Below are positions 2,219-41,944 of a stretch of DNA of 41,944 nt, piece by piece. The notes beneath the pieces were generated by a model. That model was not told the origin of the DNA, searched no databases, and saw nothing but the letters and a program-made list of their open reading frames with translations. A program made the position numbers and the translations under genes. Source of the stretch: a virus; IMG/VR virus record IMGVR_UViG_3300031576_000133, positions 1 through 41,944 of that record. The stretch is one strand, 5' to 3'. Within the stretch, counting starts at the first letter, position 1. Each line of letters starts with the position of its first letter.

Positions 2219-2338
2219 AATGACACTGTAACCACCCCCGGACGGCGAGGCGCGGGAGAGCCGCGTCAGTGTGCCGAACGCGCCTCCGGGGAACGGTCAA
2301 TAGCGGCTGTGAAAACAGCCTCAAAGAAGGTGGGCGGA

Positions 2339-3382
2339 ATGATCGTCGGGCAGTGGATAGCGATGCGATTAGACCTCTCGGTTGACCCCGCCGTATTGTC
2401 CATCGGCTACACGTTGGCGCGCACAAACAACGAGGTGATCGGCGCGCTCTACAAGGTCTGGGTTTGGGCGAATTCGCAGTCTACAGACGGCACATTTCCG
2501 TGCGTTCCGACGCGTCATGTAGACAAGATTGCCGAGATTGAAGGCTTCGCGCAGGCCATGATTGACGTCGGATGGTTGGCCGATTGTCGAGAAGGCAAAG
2601 GCACGCAAGTCCCCAATTTCAAAAGGTTTAACGGCCAATCAGCCAAGCGCCGAATGCTTAATTCACGCCGTCAAAAGATGTCGCGCGATTGTCATCCAAA
2701 TGTCGCGCTTCCAGCGCGACAAAAGCGCGACAGCAGCGCGACAAAAACGTTACGCCTCTCGCGTAAGAATAAGAATGAGAATAAGAATAAGAAACAGCAG
2801 CAGACCCCCCTACCCCCCGTTCGCTCCGAATCCACGCCGCCAGACACGCCAGGAACGCCGGGGCTTGCTGCTGGAGTTGCACTTCGTGCCGAGGGGATCG
2901 ATCCGCCGACCGACGCGATGCTGTTGGCCGAGTTCCCCGGCCTGACGCCGGAGTTGGTTCGCGAGTGCCTGACCGGGGTGAACGGCGGCCCTGGTCTCCG
3001 AGTCACGGTCCTCCGCGAGAAGCTCCCCGGGCTCATGGCCGCGCGGTCGGCGAACGCCGAGGCTTCCGGCCGGCTTGGCGTCGTGCTCGCCAGGTACCGC
3101 GCGGCGTACGAGGCGGACCCGGCCATCGGTGAGCTCTACGGGCGGCTGGCCGTCTGGGAGCAAACCGATCGGGATCGCGCGGTCGCGGAACGCCTCGCGG
3201 CGGAGATCGGGACCGCCGCTGGCACGGCCATCGCCAAGGCTTGGGTGCGCGGCTCCCGCGTGCCAGGGCGCGAGAATCACGCCGCCTACCGCGCGATGTC
3301 GGTCTCGACCGTGAGAGAGTCACCGAGCAAATACACAGTGTCGCCGGCGAAGCCCGTGCAGTCGGGGGATCGATTGACGTGA
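2339..3382 (+). CDS. Replication-initiator-like protein with internal repeats
   Basis: A 347-aa protein. The N-terminal 100 residues (MIVGQWIAMRLDLSVDP, then LYKVWVWANSQSTDG and WL-FKRFNGQSAKRR) resemble the N-terminal domain of phage replication/DnaT-like proteins, usually followed by a charged linker. Here the linker is RKNKNENKNKKQQQ, encoded by AAGAAT-type repeats at 2764-2804. The coding sequence carries clustered GCGCGAC repeats (2681-2742). The C-terminal half (150-347) is Ala/Arg-rich and helical. The ATG at 2339 is preferred over GTG 2309 because AAGAAGG lies 8 nt upstream. It is the third gene in this genome with a wHTH-like N terminus and internal repeats. Function as an initiator is inference. 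Confidence 0.7.
   Translation: MIVGQWIAMRLDLSVDPAVLSIGYTLARTNNEVIGALYKVWVWANSQSTDGTFPCVPTRHVDKIAEIEGFAQAMIDVGWLADCREGKGTQVPNFKRFNGQSAKRRMLNSRRQKMSRDCHPNVALPARQKRDSSATKTLRLSRKNKNENKNKKQQQTPLPPVRSESTPPDTPGTPGLAAGVALRAEGIDPPTDAMLLAEFPGLTPELVRECLTGVNGGPGLRVTVLREKLPGLMAARSANAEASGRLGVVLARYRAAYEADPAIGELYGRLAVWEQTDRDRAVAERLAAEIGTAAGTAIAKAWVRGSRVPGRENHAAYRAMSVSTVRESPSKYTVSPAKPVQSGDRLT
2681..2747. repeat. GCGCGAC repeat cluster inside the 2339 gene (iteron-like)
   Basis: Three direct copies of GCGCGAC lie at 2714, 2725 and 2736, exactly 11 bp apart. Two inverted cores, TCGCGC, lie at 2681 and 2703. Helical-turn spacing and position just after the DNA-binding-like domain suggest protein-binding sites or an origin inside the gene. 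Whether anything binds here cannot be told from sequence. Confidence 0.55.
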
Positions 3383-7566: not shown

Positions 7567-7710
7567 ATGGCCTTCCTTCGGCTGCTTTCGGCAGCGACCA
7601 AGCGCGCACGCCGTCGGCGCGATTGGAACCGAGTCGCGTATTTCTGCCGGTGTGCTGATCAGCTGCGTGACCGCAGGGAGGTGGCGCCCGATGGCGTTCG
7701 TGAAAATTGA
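7567..7710 (+). CDS. Possible small basic protein (47 aa)
   Basis: ATG 7567 opens a frame reading MAFLRLLSAATKRARRRRDW and then VAYFCRCADQLRDRREVAPD, with a plausible helical, basic composition. Its stop at 7710 lies 20 bp inside the initiator gene at 7691, a typical coupling overlap. There is no good ribosome-binding site and a competing open frame exists, so this is a weak call. Its position at the head of the replication operon would suit a small regulator. Confidence 0.35.
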   Translation: MAFLRLLSAATKRARRRRDWNRVAYFCRCADQLRDRREVAPDGVREN

Positions 7711-8284
7711 TTCGACATTCCTTGAGCGGGCGGACTTTTCGATCATGGCGAAAGTGATCTTCTCGGTGTTGACGGACGAAGCCCGTGGGGGCCCTCGTGT
7801 ATCGCTTGGGCTCCGCAGGTTGGCCGGCCTGATCGGCTGCAACGTTAAACCTGTTCGGCGGGCGATAAACGAACTCACCAAGCGTGGTCTCATCAAGGTC
7901 GTCGATGGGAAGTTCGGCGGCCGTAACACATACTGCCTGACCGGTGAAACCGTGTCGATTTCCGCCACAGTTTCCGAAACGCCAACCGTGGTCAAAAGCG
8001 CTACGGTTTCACCAAAGGACCTTCCAGACCGACCGTGGTCAAAAGCGCTACGGTTTCACCAAAGGACCTTCCAGACCGACCGTGGTCAAAAGCGCTACGG
8101 TAGCGTGGTCAAAAGCGCTACACTAGCGTGGTCAAAAGCGCTACACGTCCAGACTCAGACTCAGACTATAATGGCGCGCAGCCTTCGGCTGGCGCCCCCG
8201 CGTTGTTCAAAGACGATCCACCCAGGGGCAAGCGCGCTCCGAAGGGAAGCACGAAGACCAAGCGCCCGTCAGATTCCCGGGTGA
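7691..8284 (+). CDS. Winged-helix replication initiator, N-terminal part (frame lost at the iterons)
   Basis: ATG 7691 follows GGGAGG at good distance. Residues 1-85 form a winged-helix domain (FSIMAKVIFSVLTDEARGG, LRRLAGLIGCNVKPVRRAIN, ELTKRGLIKVVDGKFGGRNT). From residue 100 the gene runs through the 7988-8144 repeats; each repeat encodes VVKSAT, but units of 47 and 23 bp shift the frame, and beyond 8144 this frame is noise (Arg/Pro-rich, ending at 8284). The natural continuation is the ORF at 8128. Architecture matches lambda O: DNA-binding domain, origin iterons within the gene, then a helicase-recruiting domain, followed by the helicase gene. The role is inferred from that architecture. 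Confidence 0.75.
   Translation: MAFVKIDSTFLERADFSIMAKVIFSVLTDEARGGPRVSLGLRRLAGLIGCNVKPVRRAINELTKRGLIKVVDGKFGGRNTYCLTGETVSISATVSETPTVVKSATVSPKDLPDRPWSKALRFHQRTFQTDRGQKRYGSVVKSATLAWSKALHVQTQTQTIMARSLRLAPPRCSKTIHPGASALRREARRPSARQIPG
7988..8144. repeat. Five-copy iteron array GTGGTCAAAAGCGCTAC (candidate origin)
   Basis: The 17-bp core GTGGTCAAAAGCGCTAC occurs at 7988, 8035, 8082, 8105 and 8128, all identical, with spacings 47, 47, 23 and 23. The first two units include an extra 24-bp segment (GTTTCACCAAAGGACC...). Each core is flanked by short inverted arms, ACCGT/ACGGT in copies 1-3 and TAGCG/CGCTA in copies 4-5. The array lies inside the initiator gene, just upstream of the DnaB gene, as iterons do in lambdoid origins. 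Use as an origin is inference from architecture. Confidence 0.85.
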
Positions 8285-8772
8285 CCACGTTCGTTGCGGC
8301 TTGGCGCGTCGCCTTCGCGAAGCACCGCGGCAGCCCGTGGGTTGATTCGACCCCAGCGAAGGACCGGACACTCATCGCTCAGGCGCTTCGGCAGATCGAC
8401 GCCGATCGCCCGAGTGAAGACGCGCTAGCACTCCTGACCAGCGCGGCGGATCGACTCTGCCGCAATGGGATTCACTGGGCAAAAGGCGCGCCGTCTATCG
8501 GCATTCTGCACAAATCAATCAACGACCTTTTGCCCAAGGCAGCGCCGACACCGCAGAGCGCTCCGCCTCATCCGGTGACAAGGCAAGCTGCCGAGAAATT
8601 CGCCGAGGACATAACCCAGAACCCGGACGCTTACCGCGCTATTGGCGAACGAGTCGATCGGAAAGAAGTGTCAACCCGTGCGGCTCTGCAATCGCTCGCG
8701 AATGCGAAGTCCGGCGCGGCGTTCCGGGCCGCAATGCTCCCGGAGAAAAGTGAGGCCCACATTGTCGCTTGA
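8128..8772 (+). CDS. Initiator C-terminal part, out of frame with its N-terminal part (214 aa)
   Basis: This frame opens at the GTG of iteron copy 5 (VVKSATRPDSDSDYN). An acidic then Lys-rich linker (to about 50) is followed by a helical domain, TFVAAWRVAFAKHRGSPWVD and DRTLIAQALRQIDADRPSED, then WAKGAPSIGILHKSINDLLP, resembling the C-terminal module of phage replication proteins that contacts the helicase or loader. No ribosome-binding site precedes it, so it is probably the second half of the 7691 gene separated by a frame change within the repeats. Total core-to-core distance is 140 bp (remainder 2 of 3); losing one 23- or 47-bp unit would restore one reading frame. It overlaps the DnaB gene start. 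Confidence 0.7.
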   Translation: MVKSATRPDSDSDYNGAQPSAGAPALFKDDPPRGKRAPKGSTKTKRPSDSRVTTFVAAWRVAFAKHRGSPWVDSTPAKDRTLIAQALRQIDADRPSEDALALLTSAADRLCRNGIHWAKGAPSIGILHKSINDLLPKAAPTPQSAPPHPVTRQAAEKFAEDITQNPDAYRAIGERVDRKEVSTRAALQSLANAKSGAAFRAAMLPEKSEAHIVA

Positions 8773-10177
8773 TCGACTCATTCCACCACAAAACCTCGAT
8801 GCCGAGAAGGCTGTGTTGGGCTGTCTCTTGATGGACTGCGCAGACTTCGACGAAGTCGTCGCGCTCATCGGCGGAGTCGAATCGTTCTACACGCCGGCGC
8901 ATCGGGAAATTTACCAGCGCGTTGTCGATCTGCACGAGACCGGGGATCCGATTGACCTGGTCGTATTCGAGGCGTGGCTGAACAAGTGTCACGTGGATGG
9001 CATTCCGGAATTGCGGGAGCTTGCGATTGAATGCGCCGAATCTTTTGCCGACCTGGCCAACGCGCAACACTACGCCCGGATCGTCCGCGGGTGCGCCGAT
9101 CGACGCGACTTGATTCGGGTCGGGCAGGAGCTCGCCGCGGCCGCATGCGATGACGCAAACGAGCCCGCTGAACTCATCGCGAAGTTCAGCGGCCGACTTG
9201 AGGCGGTGCAGGGACCAACGAAGCGCGGCGACGTGATCGACGGCGTTGACTTGGTGCGGCAGTTGCCGGCTGCGATGGACGATTCATCCCGCCAGTTTGT
9301 GCCGACCGGCCTTACGGTCATCGACGTCGAGATGAGCGGTCTCGAGCGCGGCAGTTTGACGATCCTGGCGGCGCGTCCGAGCGTGGGCAAGACGGCACTC
9401 GGGCTCGGGTTCGCCCTGAACGCGGCGAGCGCCCAGCAGGAGGGTTGCCCGGCTTTGTTCGTCTCCGTCGAAATGCCCAGGCTCGCGATTGCGGCTCGGC
9501 TCGTTGGGCTGTTGACGCACGCGAACGTGTCCAATCTACGCAGCGGTGTGATGAGCGACAGCGATCGCCAAAGGGCGGTCGACGAAGCAACACGACTCCT
9601 CGCGCGAGGGCGGCTGTACGTCATCGACTCCATCTCGAACGTCGGGGACATCGTGGGCATCGCCCGTCAACACGTCCGCCGCGGCGTGGGCCTTGTGGTC
9701 GTTGATTATCTCCAGCTCTGTCAGCCGGCGGGTCGTGCCGAGAATCGCAATCTCGCTGTTGCATCGATGTCTGCGGCGTTCAAGCGGCTTGCCCAGCAGA
9801 CGGGCGCGGCCGTGGTCGTGTGCAGCCAGCTCTCCAGAGACCACGAGAAGTCGGGTCGCAAGCCGACGCTCGGCGATTTACGCGACTCCGGCGCGATCGA
9901 ACAGGATGCCGACGTGGTGATGTTCCTTCATCGCGGAGACGACGCGAACGGCTATCCAACACCGGTCGAGCTGCTCGTGCGCAAGAACCGGAACGGGCGG
10001 ACGTTCGAGGGTACCCTTGCGTTTTATGGGCAGCAAATGTGGTTCGAAAACTGGACGACGGCGCCTTCGGCGAACACGGCGACGCCAAGCACACTTTTTC
10101 AGGCTGACCAACGCCGCACCGCTTGTTTTCTCGCTCCGAATCGGTGTGGAGAGATTCACACTGTTGGCACATCGTAA
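8750..10177 (+). CDS. dnaB: Replicative DNA helicase, DnaB family
   Basis: About 475 aa. The N-terminal domain (LIPPQNLDAEKAVLGCLLMD, then YTPAHREIYQRVVDLHETGD) and the RecA-like C-terminal domain are both complete. Walker A is ARPSVGKTAL with K214; Walker B is LVVVDYLQL; the motif GDLRDSGAIEQDADVVMFLHR and the arginine-bearing VRKNRNGRTFEG end the fold. It unwinds DNA ahead of the fork as a hexamer. Start: GTG 8750 with GGAG upstream, or TTG 8762; both overlap the preceding gene. A 40-residue tail after WFENW is unrelated to the family. It lies directly after the iteron-bearing initiator, as expected for a phage replication module. Confidence 0.92.
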   Translation: MRPTLSLDRLIPPQNLDAEKAVLGCLLMDCADFDEVVALIGGVESFYTPAHREIYQRVVDLHETGDPIDLVVFEAWLNKCHVDGIPELRELAIECAESFADLANAQHYARIVRGCADRRDLIRVGQELAAAACDDANEPAELIAKFSGRLEAVQGPTKRGDVIDGVDLVRQLPAAMDDSSRQFVPTGLTVIDVEMSGLERGSLTILAARPSVGKTALGLGFALNAASAQQEGCPALFVSVEMPRLAIAARLVGLLTHANVSNLRSGVMSDSDRQRAVDEATRLLARGRLYVIDSISNVGDIVGIARQHVRRGVGLVVVDYLQLCQPAGRAENRNLAVASMSAAFKRLAQQTGAAVVVCSQLSRDHEKSGRKPTLGDLRDSGAIEQDADVVMFLHRGDDANGYPTPVELLVRKNRNGRTFEGTLAFYGQQMWFENWTTAPSANTATPSTLFQADQRRTACFLAPNRCGEIHTVGTS

Positions 10178-10626: not shown

Positions 10627-11472
10627 ATGTCAGAGATTCTATCCCACCGACGATCCAAACGCGACAACGCCGTTGACGGCAACGGCCGGGCCAACGAGTC
10701 CGAGGCCGGCAAGAGGATCGCAATCATCCCGGAATCATTCTTTGAGTCGGGTCGAATACGATCACTGACGGGCAGGTCCTTGAAAGTGTTTCTTGTGCTG
10801 GCCCTGCACCGGGGGAACGAAAACGGGAAGGCGTACCCGAGCGTTGACACCATCTCTAGGTTGAGCGGAGTCGATTGCAGGGACGTTCGCCGACACCTCC
10901 GCACCCTTGAAGACCTGAAGTTCATCAACGTCACGCTCAGTACGGGACGGAAGACAAACCACTACCGGATCGATTGGGGAACCCTGGTGGAAACACCCCA
11001 GGTTGCAACCCTGGGCAAATCCACCCAGGTTCAAAACGCCAACCCTGGTGGAAACGCGCCGCCAACCCTGGTGGAAACGCGCCGCAACCCTGGGCAAATC
11101 CACCCCCCAGAACATAGTAGAACAGAGAATGAACAGAGTATCCCCGCTGCGCGGGGCGCTCTGTGGGATTCAATATGCCAAGTGTTCGACTTCGACCCGA
11201 ACCCGAAAGCGAGAACACACAAGACCCGCCTCGGCAAGCTGGTCCGCGAATTTGGAGAACTGAATGCTACGCCTGATGAAATCTCGAAACGGGCCGATCG
11301 GCTCCGTCGCACCTGGGGGGACAAGTGCCATACCCCAGAGTCGCTTCACAAGCACTGGGGCAAGTTTGCCGCGGACGTCGCGGACACTCCCCGCGGCGAC
11401 CGTACAGCCCGCGTGGCAGCGGCTGCTGGAAAATATGATGGCATCGCAGTTGTCGTTGACGCGAACGTGTGA
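10627..11472 (+). CDS. Second winged-helix replication initiator-like protein (281 aa)
   Basis: Residues 35-115 form a winged-helix domain: SLTGRSLKVFLVLALHRGNE, AYPSVDTISRLSGVDCRDVR, RHLRTLEDLKFINVTLSTGR. A linker of about 45 residues is encoded by a repeat cluster (10980-11105; NPGG, TLVET motifs). The C-terminal 100 residues are helical and basic (TRLGKLVREFGELNATPDEI, RADRLRRTWGDKCHTPESLH), like the C-terminal module of phage initiators. Start ATG 10627 is chosen on composition; GTG 10558, overlapping the previous gene, is possible. The DnaC-like loader gene begins inside its 3' end. The architecture copies the 7691/8128 gene, but the repeat sequence differs. Confidence 0.75.
   Translation: MSEILSHRRSKRDNAVDGNGRANESEAGKRIAIIPESFFESGRIRSLTGRSLKVFLVLALHRGNENGKAYPSVDTISRLSGVDCRDVRRHLRTLEDLKFINVTLSTGRKTNHYRIDWGTLVETPQVATLGKSTQVQNANPGGNAPPTLVETRRNPGQIHPPEHSRTENEQSIPAARGALWDSICQVFDFDPNPKARTHKTRLGKLVREFGELNATPDEISKRADRLRRTWGDKCHTPESLHKHWGKFAADVADTPRGDRTARVAAAAGKYDGIAVVVDANV
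10980..11105. repeat. AACCCTGG-type iteron cluster inside the second initiator gene
   Basis: Five copies share AACCCTGG. Three read AACCCTGGTGGAAAC (10980, 11041, 11064) and two read AACCCTGGGCAAATCCACCC (11007, 11086). Copies at 11041 and 11064 are 23 bp apart, the same spacing as in the first array, and 11086 follows after 22 bp. The first B-type copy forms a near-palindrome with its left flank (CCCAGGTTGCAACCCTGGG, 10998-11016). Position between the winged-helix and C-terminal domains suggests a second initiator-specific origin; this is inference. Confidence 0.75.
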
Positions 11473-12037
11473 GCCGCTCGTTGGCGGCGGACGCAAGGCG
11501 TCAGCACCCACCATCGACCGAGATGTTGACGAAATCGCACCGCGGGTGCGTGCGACGATCCGACAGGCGGTCAACGGTGAATTGCCGTGGCCGCTGGTGT
11601 TCGTCGGGCCTGCCGGTGCAGGGAAATCGTGCGCGGCGTTGTGTGTGTTCGACCGCTTCGGTGGTTGGTATCTGACGGTTGCGGAACTACTCGAAAAGAT
11701 ACTGCTTTCGCAACGCGGCGACCTACGCACTGCTTCGGGACACAGTTGGACGGCGACGGAGCTGTGGCGCGACTGGTCAACCGCGTCCGTGGCCATCCTC
11801 GACGAACTCGGTTCGCGCAGCACGGTGAGCGACTTTCACTACGAGCAGGTCAAACGTGCGATCGACTTGCGGCAGGAGCGACCGCTCATCGTCGTCAGCA
11901 ATCACACTATCGAGCGCATCGCCGACCTGTATGACGACAGGATTGCGAGTCGCCTGGCGGGCGGAACCGTCATCGCATTCGAGGGCAAAGATCGCAGGCT
12001 GTCATGCCGGAAGTCTCACGTGGAGGCGGTCGCATGA
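11435..12037 (+). CDS. DnaC/IstB-like helicase-loader ATPase
   Basis: A 200-aa AAA+ ATPase of the DnaC type, which loads DnaB at the origin. Walker A is FVGPAGAGKSCAAL with K64; Walker B is VAILDELG with D123 and E124; the sensor strand is RPLIVVSNHTIERIADLYDD and the arginine finger region is RIASRLAGG. The N terminus before the ATPase is only about 50 aa, short for DnaC. Start is the double ATG 11435/11438 within the preceding gene; the ORF remains open further upstream but that part is the shadow of the initiator. IstB is excluded by the lack of any transposase nearby. Confidence 0.85.
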   Translation: MMASQLSLTRTCEPLVGGGRKASAPTIDRDVDEIAPRVRATIRQAVNGELPWPLVFVGPAGAGKSCAALCVFDRFGGWYLTVAELLEKILLSQRGDLRTASGHSWTATELWRDWSTASVAILDELGSRSTVSDFHYEQVKRAIDLRQERPLIVVSNHTIERIADLYDDRIASRLAGGTVIAFEGKDRRLSCRKSHVEAVA

Positions 12038-36932: not shown

Positions 36933-37608
36933 TCACATTTTCAGGCCACATCCATAAACCACGTCATATAAACGACTTAGAATAGGCTTCATCAGAATCA
37001 TAATCACTTGGTCGGGACCGGCGCAGAAGCGGATGCGGTACAGGACCGAGCCGTCCGGCCCCATGATCTCACGGTCATACCCGTATGGCGTCAGGCGGCC
37101 AGGATCGGAGGCGCCCAGCACGGACGAGATCTGTCCGCGAAGCGTGTTCTGCGACAGACTGATCGAGAACTGGCGGTTCTGAAATTGCCTGAAATTGCTT
37201 CACCGCTCGCAAGACGTCGCCATCGATCCCTTCGCGGGCGATGTAGTCCTCGGTCACGGACAACAGGACGGCACCGGCCTTGCGGAGCAGGTACCGGTAG
37301 TACTCCGTCTCGGTAACATCGCCGCGCGAGAAGCGATCGGAGTTCCAGACAATAACGGCCTTGAAGTTACCCCGTTCTGCGTCTGCGATCATTCGTTGAA
37401 AGGCGGGCCGCTTGTCGGCCGAGGTGCCGCTGATGGCGTCGTCGAGGTACTCGCGGACGATGTCGTAGTCGCGTTCCGCGGCCCAGCGCGCTACCTCGGT
37501 GCGCTGGTCGCCGATGCTGTGCTCCTGGCGGTCAGTCGAGCGTCGAAGGTACGCGACGGCTGGGATTCGTGGCTTCGTTGCGATCTCCATTTTTCGGTTC
37601 CCGTTCAC
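36933..37608 (-). pseudogene. Serine recombinase, broken by a 10-bp tandem duplication
   Basis: The GTG 37608 (or ATG 37590) frame encodes a resolvase catalytic domain: AVAYLRRSTDRQEHSIGDQR with the nucleophile serine in LRRS, then VREYLDDAISGTSADKRPAF and AVIVWNSDRFSRGDV. After LRAVKQFQ the frame is lost. The next frame resumes with NRQFSISLSQNTLRGQISSV and ASDPGRLTPYGYDREIM, the expected start of the recombinase domain, and then runs out at 36935. The break coincides with CTGAAATTGC repeated at 37179 and 37189; removing one copy restores a continuous frame of about 220 aa. Even so the DNA-binding part would be missing, so it is a remnant. Divergent from the late operon. Confidence 0.85.
37179..37198. 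repeat. 10-bp tandem duplication CTGAAATTGC
   Basis: Two exact adjacent copies, 37179-37188 and 37189-37198. Their presence shifts the serine recombinase frame by one base; deletion of one copy joins the two coding halves exactly. It looks like a replication-slippage insertion. Confidence 0.85.
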
Positions 37609-37938: not shown

Positions 37939-38670
37939 ATGGCAGATTTTTTGATCGAACTCGAAGTCGGCGGGAAGCGACACCGGTTGAAGCCGCCGGC
38001 GGACCAACGCCAAGCTCGAGCGCTCGCCGCGTGGCTTGATCGCGAGCGCTCATTCCGCGACGCGGGCGCGCCGCTGCCTCAGGCGCTCATTGACGAGGCT
38101 GGGCGGTTGCCACGTCGCATCCGCAACCGGCTGGCGGCGTGGGGGATGCTGGGCGGGGGAAGCGCATGGCGGAGACCTCAAGTCGCTTGCTGGCCGCTAC
38201 GCGGCTTCCCTGCGCGCGGGGGGACGCTCGGAAGGCCACGTCGGACGTACGGAACTGGCCATCCAATTGCGCCTTGAGCCTCTCATCGCGTGGCTGGCCG
38301 GACGGCGGGCGATGGACGGTAAGACGATAGAAGTGGCCTCCACTCGCGGTCACTCGCGCCCCGTCCGGTTCGGCACTCGGACATCGAACGCCTATCTGAT
38401 GGCCATGTGCTCGTTTGCCCGCTGGCTCACCGTCGAGGGTCACCTCGAGCGCAACCCGCTGGTCCGCGCGAAACCGCTACGGCAGGATGTGAAGCGGGTG
38501 ACGCGGAGGGCGCTCCTGCCGGCGGAGGTTGGGAAGCTCTTAAAGGTCGCTGGTCCGGTGTTCGGCGTCCCCGCGGCTGATCGCGTCATGCTCTACCGCA
38601 TGGCCCTGGAGACGGGCCTGCGGTCCGGGGAGCTGCGGTCGCTGACGGTGGGGTCCAGTGCATTCCTTGG
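37939..38670 (+). pseudogene. Tyrosine recombinase (phage integrase), frameshifted and truncated
   Basis: ATG 37939 encodes MADFLIELEVGGKRHRLKPP through LPRRIRNRLAAWGMLGG, an N-terminal domain. A five-G run at 38155-38159 breaks the frame (four G would keep it). The next frame continues with EAHGGDLKSLAGRYAASLRA, the SAM-like core-binding domain (NAYLMAMCSFARWLTVEGHL, ERNPLVRAKPL), then the start of the catalytic domain with ALETGLRSGELRSL, which holds the first catalytic arginine. Similarity stops near 38665, and the later H, R and Y residues are absent; AT-rich promoter-like DNA follows. No integrase activity is expected. Confidence 0.8.
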
Positions 38671-38735
38671 ATTGGCATTAAATCCTTTCAGCGGCAAGAC
38701 TTACACGAAAACGCATTGTGCCTATATTATTTCCA

Positions 38736-38763
38736 TTGACACATACACGATTTCGATTATCTT
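38736..38763 (+). promoter_or_regulatory. Candidate sigma-70-type promoter for the early operon
   Basis: TTGACA (38736-38741) is a perfect -35 box; TATCTT (38758-38763) matches four of six -10 bases at 16-bp spacing. It lies in a clearly AT-rich tract (38670-38770) where the integrase similarity ends, upstream of a run of coupled forward genes. Transcription would begin around 38770, almost at the ATG at 38772, implying a leaderless message. TACACGA occurs at 38702 and 38744 and could be an operator. Confidence 0.5.
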
Positions 38764-38771
38764 TCCGCCTC

Positions 38772-38981
38772 ATGCTCAGTGCAGTTGTTTTAGATCGACG
38801 GGTGAGGGGCGGGAAGTTTTGCGACGTGATCGACGTCGCGGACGTGCTCGCGGAAGGCGACCTCCATACGCCGGCGAACGCAATCGCGGTCATGTGTCGC
38901 CAGTCGTCGCTGTTTGCTGAGACGGTCGCAAAGCTACAGCAGCAGCAGCAGTGTTCAAAGCGAAAGAAGGTGCCCGCATGA
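38772..38981 (+). CDS. Small hypothetical protein (69 aa), first early gene
   Basis: MLSAVVLDRRVRGGKFCDVI then DVADVLAEGDLHTPANAIAV and AETVAKLQQQQQ with a basic end. The five glutamines come from a CAG-repeat (38937-38951). No ribosome-binding site precedes ATG 38772, consistent with leaderless translation from the promoter just upstream. The stop overlaps the next start (ATGA). Not recognised. Confidence 0.6.
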   Translation: MLSAVVLDRRVRGGKFCDVIDVADVLAEGDLHTPANAIAVMCRQSSLFAETVAKLQQQQQCSKRKKVPA

Positions 38982-39127
38982 GAACTCGTCACTTAGTAGT
39001 GATCGCTGTGTCGTGTCTCTGTTTCTTCTGCTGGCTCGGCGAACTCTACCGCCGATCAGTGCAGGCGACGCTCGACATGCTCGAACGCGACGTGCCGCTC
39101 ATCACGATGGGAGGGATGGAAGGATGA
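38978..39127 (+). CDS. Small membrane protein (49 aa)
   Basis: ATGA overlap and GAAGG 7 nt upstream. The sequence MRTRHLVVIAVSCLCFFCWL is a membrane segment or signal anchor, followed by a short helical tail (RRSVQATLDMLERDVPLI). It is coupled to another MRT-starting membrane peptide downstream. Function unknown; small early membrane proteins of phages are often superinfection-exclusion or host-takeover factors, which is only a suggestion. Confidence 0.6.
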   Translation: MRTRHLVVIAVSCLCFFCWLGELYRRSVQATLDMLERDVPLITMGGMEG

Positions 39128-41211: not shown

Positions 41212-41770
41212 ACCGAAGAACATGGTCGCCGAGATCGACGTGAGGACTGAGTCAATCAAGAGTGAGTTGACGCGGATAGCGGCACACTACAACGGTGTGC
41301 TCAATCCGCGGCAGGTCGTCGAGGCGGCGCGCGACGAGTCTCACGCTTTACACGGGGAGTTTTGTTGGGACGACAGTGAGGCTGCGGACAGATACCGCAT
41401 CGCGCAAGCCGGTGCGCTGATTCGCCGCGTGTCCTATACGATCACGCGCCAAGATCCCAAGACGAAAGAGATCAGATTGACGACGACGCGGGCCTATCAG
41501 TCCAGACCTTCCATGAGAAGTGCGGACGGCGGCTATGAGGATGTCAACGCGATCGTTTCCGATGAGGAAAAGCGTCAGGAGATGCTACGTCAAGTCATGT
41601 CTGAGTTGGCGGCCTACCGTCGCCGCTACGACGCGCTCGTTGAGTTGCGCTCCGTCTGGGCCGCTATCGATGAGGCGGCGCTTACCGCCAAGGAGTTGAA
41701 GGCACCTCGGAAGCACGTTGCGAAGAATGTTCCTGTTGTTAGGCGCGGCAAGGCAAGCATGGCACGGTAA
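41201..41770 (+). CDS. Hypothetical protein preceding the repeat array (189 aa)
   Basis: GTG 41201 with AGGAG 9 nt upstream; ATG 41222 is an alternative. A first domain, SELTRIAAHYNGVLNPRQVV, resembles the start of a common phage domain of unknown role (EAARDESHALHGEFCWDDSE, ADRYRIAQAGALIRRVSYTI). A helical segment with QEMLRQVMSELAAYRRRYDA follows and then a basic tail. Its stop TAA (41768-41770) is the first TAACGCC of the repeat array, so the last residues RRGKASMAR are encoded by repeat-like DNA. Across the circle junction the next gene is the exonuclease. Confidence 0.75.
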   Translation: MTSKPKNMVAEIDVRTESIKSELTRIAAHYNGVLNPRQVVEAARDESHALHGEFCWDDSEAADRYRIAQAGALIRRVSYTITRQDPKTKEIRLTTTRAYQSRPSMRSADGGYEDVNAIVSDEEKRQEMLRQVMSELAAYRRRYDALVELRSVWAAIDEAALTAKELKAPRKHVAKNVPVVRRGKASMAR

Positions 41771-41944
41771 CGCCGACAAGGCAAGGCATGGCGCGGCGCG
41801 GCGCGGCGCGGCGGGGCATGGCGCGGTAACGCCGACAAGGCAAGGCATGGCGCGGCGCGGCGCGGCGGGGCACGGCGGGGCACGGTAACGCCGACAAGGC
41901 AAGGCATGGCGAGGCAAGGCCAGGCACGGTAACGCCGACAAGGC
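41739..41944. repeat. GC-rich 59-bp tandem repeat array, right end
   Basis: TAACGCC cores at 41768, 41827, 41886 and 41930 repeat the left-end spacings of 59, 59 and 44 bp. Bases 41786-41911 are identical to 1-126, and 41911-41944 equal 185-218. The right end is therefore the left end minus one 59-bp unit, so the contig ends overlap. Collapsing the overlap gives a circle near 41.8 kb, uncertain by repeat copy number. Confidence 0.95.

Follow-up and report, generated by a model that had tools for sequence, protein, structure and literature searches.

A frame-broken initiator gene built like lambda O around a putative nested origin in a planctomycete-type phage record

Introduction

In lambdoid phages the origin of replication is located in the middle of gene O (PMC7466680). 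Phage lambda itself carries iterons at 39034, 39054, 39078 and 39101 within an intact O gene, with spacings of 20, 24 and 23 bp and a span of 67 bp. Relatives with six iterons instead of the four of lambda encode an O protein that is longer by 13 residues, and the frame was kept (PMC7466680); in the phage collection, six-iteron O genes comprise 939 bases compared to 900. A related arrangement is known from plasmid pIGRK, where a full initiator, RepR, and a short antagonistic form, RepR′, originate from one locus. RepR′ arises there at an internal in-frame start and is devoid of the N-terminus (PMC6854812).

Here we describe an initiator gene, referred to as initiator 1, from a virus record. 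The window, meaning the whole stretch of DNA that was analysed, comprises 41,944 nucleotides (IMG/VR record IMGVR_UViG_3300031576_000133, positions 1 to 41,944). It carries terminase, portal and protease genes as well as a gene for a DUF1580 protein, a family known mainly from planctomycetes, and the record is that of a planctomycete-type phage. The GC skew gave no origin signal in the record. GC-rich tandem arrays with 59-bp units at 1–247 and 41742–41944 share 126 identical bases, and these terminal arrays suggest a circular or terminally repeated genome that was cut within the array.

Results and Discussion

The iteron array of initiator 1 extends over positions 7985–8145 (+) and contains five exact copies of the 18-bp core CGTGGTCAAAAGCGCTAC, with start positions 7987, 8034, 8081, 8104 and 8127. 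All cores share a single orientation, with start-to-start spacings of 47, 47, 23 and 23 bp and a span of 140 bp. The original prediction of five identical 17-bp cores at these distances could thus be confirmed, the 17-bp sequence being found inside CGTGGTCAAAAGCGCTAC. With up to three mismatches allowed, exactly five matches occurred on both strands of all 41,944 bases, all of them in the array, compared to a chance expectation of 0.06 as the mean over dinucleotide shuffles. Over its first 117 bases the array repeats with 100% identity at a periodicity of 47 bp; judging from this sequence identity, the 47-bp-periodic part is probably a recent duplication. A difference of two bases distinguishes the two 23-bp units. 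Cores 1–3 open the imperfect dyad ACCGTGG...CTACGGT, in whose arms six of the seven outer pairs match in copies 1 and 2 (by inspection), while the later copies are weaker.

The region concerned is larger than the stretch originally marked, 7988–8284, which reaches from core 1 to the stop of the frame-2 open reading frame; the gene as a whole covers 7691–8772. Its N-terminal, O-like open reading frame lies in frame 2 at 7691–8284 (+), from an ATG at 7691 to a TGA at 8282–8284. A Shine–Dalgarno-like GGGAGGTGG is found a few bases 5′ of the ATG, and frame 2 is open from 5′ of this start through to the TGA. The encoded half consists of a winged helix at approximately residues 8–85 and, after it, the iteron-coded linker. 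It matches the replication initiation protein family phrog_270 (2.1e-6), phrog_186 (3.4e-6) and the O-like phrog_678 (0.0015); the match to HTH_36 is weak and under the Pfam cut-off. The predicted order of elements, H-H-H-H-E-E, corresponds to a winged helix in a low-confidence model.

The C half is read in frame 1, open at 8104–8772 (+), and is bounded by a TAG in the same frame at 8101–8103 (+). Its helices were predicted at a pLDDT of 54, the first one from about 8272, and no family match was obtained in pfam, phrog or ncbifam. GTG 8128, TTG 8203 and GTG 8281 are candidate starts, and a Shine–Dalgarno sequence is absent at all three. GTG 8281 was set aside as the start of the C half (no Shine–Dalgarno sequence; frame 1 signal earlier). 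The C half is directly followed by a gene for a DnaB-type replicative helicase at 8762–10177 (+), identified by PF03796 (2.9e-60), PF00772 (1.1e-19) and phrog_19 (8.6e-84). Its start, TTG 8762, overlaps the end of the C half and has GTGAGG upstream.

Codon-usage scores were trained on the record's own genes; in controls, where the control genes were the training genes, true frames scored 0.42 and false frames −0.39. Over 7691–7984 frame 2 reaches 0.28, compared to −0.20 and −0.30 in the other frames, and over 8285–8772 frame 1 reaches 0.30 per codon versus −0.30 and −0.28. Within the array neither frame is clearly ahead. Downstream of it the frame 1 score is weak in 8146–8280, and in 8176–8280, upstream of GTG 8281, frame 1 scores 0.05 versus −0.34 for frame 2. 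A signal in frame 2 before and in frame 1 after the array is as expected of one gene that lost its frame. Family matches and codon scores therefore bear out the earlier claims of an initiator gene that houses its own iterons and of a winged-helix half and a C-terminal half read in different frames. Iterons, similarity to a winged helix, two coding halves in different frames and an adjacent dnaB gene are found together at this locus.

In comparison to lambda O with its origin, the same order is found: iterons lie mid-gene, with a DNA-binding N half before and a C half after them. In both cases they form imperfect dyads around an A-rich centre and are spaced by about 20–24 bp, the core span is not a multiple of three, and lambda likewise has its helicase-recruiting gene adjacent. 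Winged helix, internal iterons, imperfect dyads and adjacent helicase are the lambda-type features present in initiator 1, whereas a single continuous frame through the iterons is absent. Further differences are the two 47-bp spacings and the neighbouring gene, which encodes a DnaB helicase and not a P-type loader. The frame of lambda O is uninterrupted and an AT-rich element lies beside its iterons; in initiator 1 the frame changes and the AT-rich element is weak, since AT beside the array peaks at 50% (30-base windows), the GC content of the record being about 60%. By its sequence, initiator 1 is best described as a frame-broken gene built like a lambda-type (O-like) initiator with a nested origin. 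With respect to the neighbouring gene, the P22-type replication module is comparable: it consists of gene 18, encoding an O-like initiator, and gene 12, encoding a DnaB-type helicase. The likeness lies in the gene order, with the initiator directly followed by a phage DnaB-type helicase, but unlike the P22-type initiator, initiator 1 is split.

Two further predicted initiator genes were found. Initiator 2 (10627–11472, +) is an O-like gene whose frame is intact; it carries iterons of its own and matches phrog_270 (7.5e-14), the O-like phrog_391 (2.1e-9) and HTH_36 (PF13730, 5.6e-11). Its iterons (CCCTGG...) at 10982, 11009, 11043, 11066 and 11088 span 106 bp, which is not a multiple of three. 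Similar to initiator 1, it combines a winged helix, a linker coded by five iterons, here spaced by 22–34 bp, and a C half; in contrast, the frame is intact, the iteron sequence is unrelated and the partner gene is a different one. The BLASTP comparison of the two proteins was not significant (E 0.32). Beside initiator 2 lies a gene for a DnaC-like helicase loader with an uncertain start (11264–12037, +; phrog_50, 6.4e-20), so that initiator 1 adjoins a DnaB helicase and initiator 2 a DnaC-like loader. Initiator 3 (2309–3382, +) is an intact predicted replication initiation gene (phrog_2509, 1.3e-35) with internal AGCGCGACA/TGTCGCGC sites at 2679–2743, followed by a tract of 67–70% AT at 2760–2804. 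Overall, three predicted initiator genes occur in one 42-kb record (2309–3382, 7691–8772 and 10627–11472), each with its own repeat set.

The unit counts named in the original prediction and some neighbouring counts were translated in silico. Removal of either one 23-bp or one 47-bp unit had been proposed to join both halves. This holds for the 23-bp unit, after whose loss the frame continues to 8772, the sole read-through among the single-unit changes tested. When one 47-bp unit is lost, the length likewise becomes a multiple of three; translation of the joined halves nevertheless ends at codon 122, at the TAG of 8101–8103, and the part of the proposal concerning this unit has to be given up. 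In the tested gains of one or two units the joined frame stops as well. Divisibility of the core span by three turned out to be no measure of intactness, as the spans of lambda O (67 bp) and initiator 2 (106 bp) are not divisible either and both genes are intact. What matters is the agreement of the flanking frames, and those of initiator 1 disagree. The 47-bp units look youngest, yet undoing one of them leaves the frame broken, whereas the 23-bp unit, whose loss mends the frame, is not the youngest-looking (two-base difference). The youngest-looking duplication therefore differs from the frame-restoring one, which fits no simple history.

Searches of IMG/VR, of GTDB contigs and of phage and plasmid records revealed no homologue of either half of initiator 1, and 392 planctomycete genomes yielded only weak matches (E ~1e-3). 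Initiator 2, the portal and the exact core CGTGGTCAAAAGCGCTAC had no match in viral contigs, nor did the C half in genome contigs, and the terminase had one relative (24%). Structure predictions were made without alignments and were too weak for fold searches. Because no homologue of either half was found, a fused ancestor of the two is only inferred, from anatomy, codon signal and analogy. Internal repeats in initiator-type genes were looked for among relatives of the DnaB helicase (at most 37% identity). Just upstream of one such relative, at L006:3664–4983, AATTAGAAAAA repeats with spacings of 27 and 42 are contained in an intact frame of 440 codons; this candidate is possibly another nested origin.

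Elsewhere in the record, an integrase-like tyrosine recombinase lies at 37939–38920 (gene 37939–38660, +). It is frame-broken, the change falling within about 38160–38198, and truncated at its end before the distal catalytic part. A planctomycete homologue of 613 codons aligns to both pieces in one frame, and in planctomycete genomes the integrase homologues each form one long frame. Frame lesions in the record, as judged by these alignments, are not confined to iterons. In the same region, a serine recombinase (37075–37608, −) comprises the N-terminal resolvase domain only (PF00239, 113 of 145 positions), and no clear continuation in the same frame was found.

We consider it probable that initiator 1 contains a lambda-type origin nested in its own initiator gene and that the frame lesion in or beside the array is most likely unprogrammed. 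The five iterons, which also encode the linker of the protein, would be the binding sites of the N-terminal winged helix; recruitment of the DnaB helicase from the neighbouring gene would fall to the C-terminal helical domain, and the array would act as replication origin. The lesion may result from a slippage or duplication variant, from decay of a redundant module or from a sequence error. As the record has two further initiator-like genes that are intact and contain internal repeats, the phage could tolerate the lesion in initiator 1. Since the integrase gene is also frame-broken, and there without iterons, an ordinary lesion would suffice. No switch is needed to account for the frame change; the likeliest readings are a tolerated lesion, a strain variant or an assembly slip that affects one replication module out of several.

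A sequence or assembly error, with an intact natural gene and a contig that miscounts a unit or contains a small indel, overlaps with this explanation as one of its causes. As the actual cause we regard it as a tentative possibility that deserves consideration. The record originates from a collection of uncultivated viruses, and its ends fall in the 59-bp arrays with their 126 shared identical bases, pointing to arrays having troubled the assembly. The 117 bp of perfect 47-bp periodicity in the iteron region point in the same direction. However, the 47-bp unit, which is easiest to miscount, mended the frame in none of the counts tested. The 23-bp units differ by two bases, so that fairly short words tell them apart, and the break in the integrase gene involves no repeat array.

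Two separate proteins, with the N-terminal frame ending at 8284 and the C-terminal domain restarting at GTG 8281 or 8128 to give a two-subunit initiator, are unlikely. In the GTGA at 8281–8284 (+) the frame-2 stop overlaps a frame-1 GTG, which offers a possible but weak restart site in the correct frame and close to where the predicted helical domain begins. Such an overlap results whenever TGA is preceded by A, G or T, though, and is thus frequent by chance, and none of the candidate starts of the C half is equipped with a Shine–Dalgarno sequence. Moreover, the first predicted helix (~8272) begins ahead of GTG 8281, and the codon score leans to frame 1 already upstream of this position.

That the initiator is made deliberately in two forms, by a change in iteron number or by recoding at core 5, with the binding sites setting the amount of helicase-recruiting protein, appears quite improbable. 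No precedent for initiator phase variation or frame switching via iteron number was found in the open-access literature. Recoding at core 5, where a programmed −1 frameshift on A AAA G would produce short and long forms in a set ratio, has very little probability. Core 5 reads TCA AAA GCG in frame 2, where a −1 slip on AAA restores full pairing and leads into the C-terminal frame with no stop on the way. On the other hand, frame 2 contains no X XXY YYZ heptamer within 8104–8284, and a GC-rich hairpin at about 8172–8197 lies some 35 nt downstream, too distant for a usual stimulator. Folding 3′ of the array is no better than in shuffles (z 0.67, DNA energies), and the A4 is present in every core, being part of the repeat.

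Least probable of all is the repeat-number switch originally proposed, in which variation in the population would toggle the gene between the full-length initiator and a short form that binds DNA and represses its own origin: the units are identical enough to slip, one 23-bp loss reads through and the short Rep form RepR′ of plasmid pIGRK, which resembles the proposed short form, antagonises the full initiator, although it stems from an internal start and not from a change in repeat number (PMC6854812), but losing a 47-bp unit leaves the frame unrestored, in the O genes of lambda-type phages the frame survived natural iteron changes (PMC7466680), searches revealed no related genome with a different unit number, and no iteron lies near the gene start or any promoter, so that an operator for an autorepressor is missing. 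Neither the switch nor the repressor function was supported.

Conclusion

Initiator 1 extends the nested-origin layout of lambda to a phage that has no close sequenced relative and comes from a planctomycete-type setting, and to a record in which each of three initiator-like genes holds internal repeats. Its frame change illustrates that an initiator becomes prone to frame lesions when iterons lie within its coding sequence. If the frame change were programmed after all, the copy number of the origin would be tied directly to the form of the initiator.
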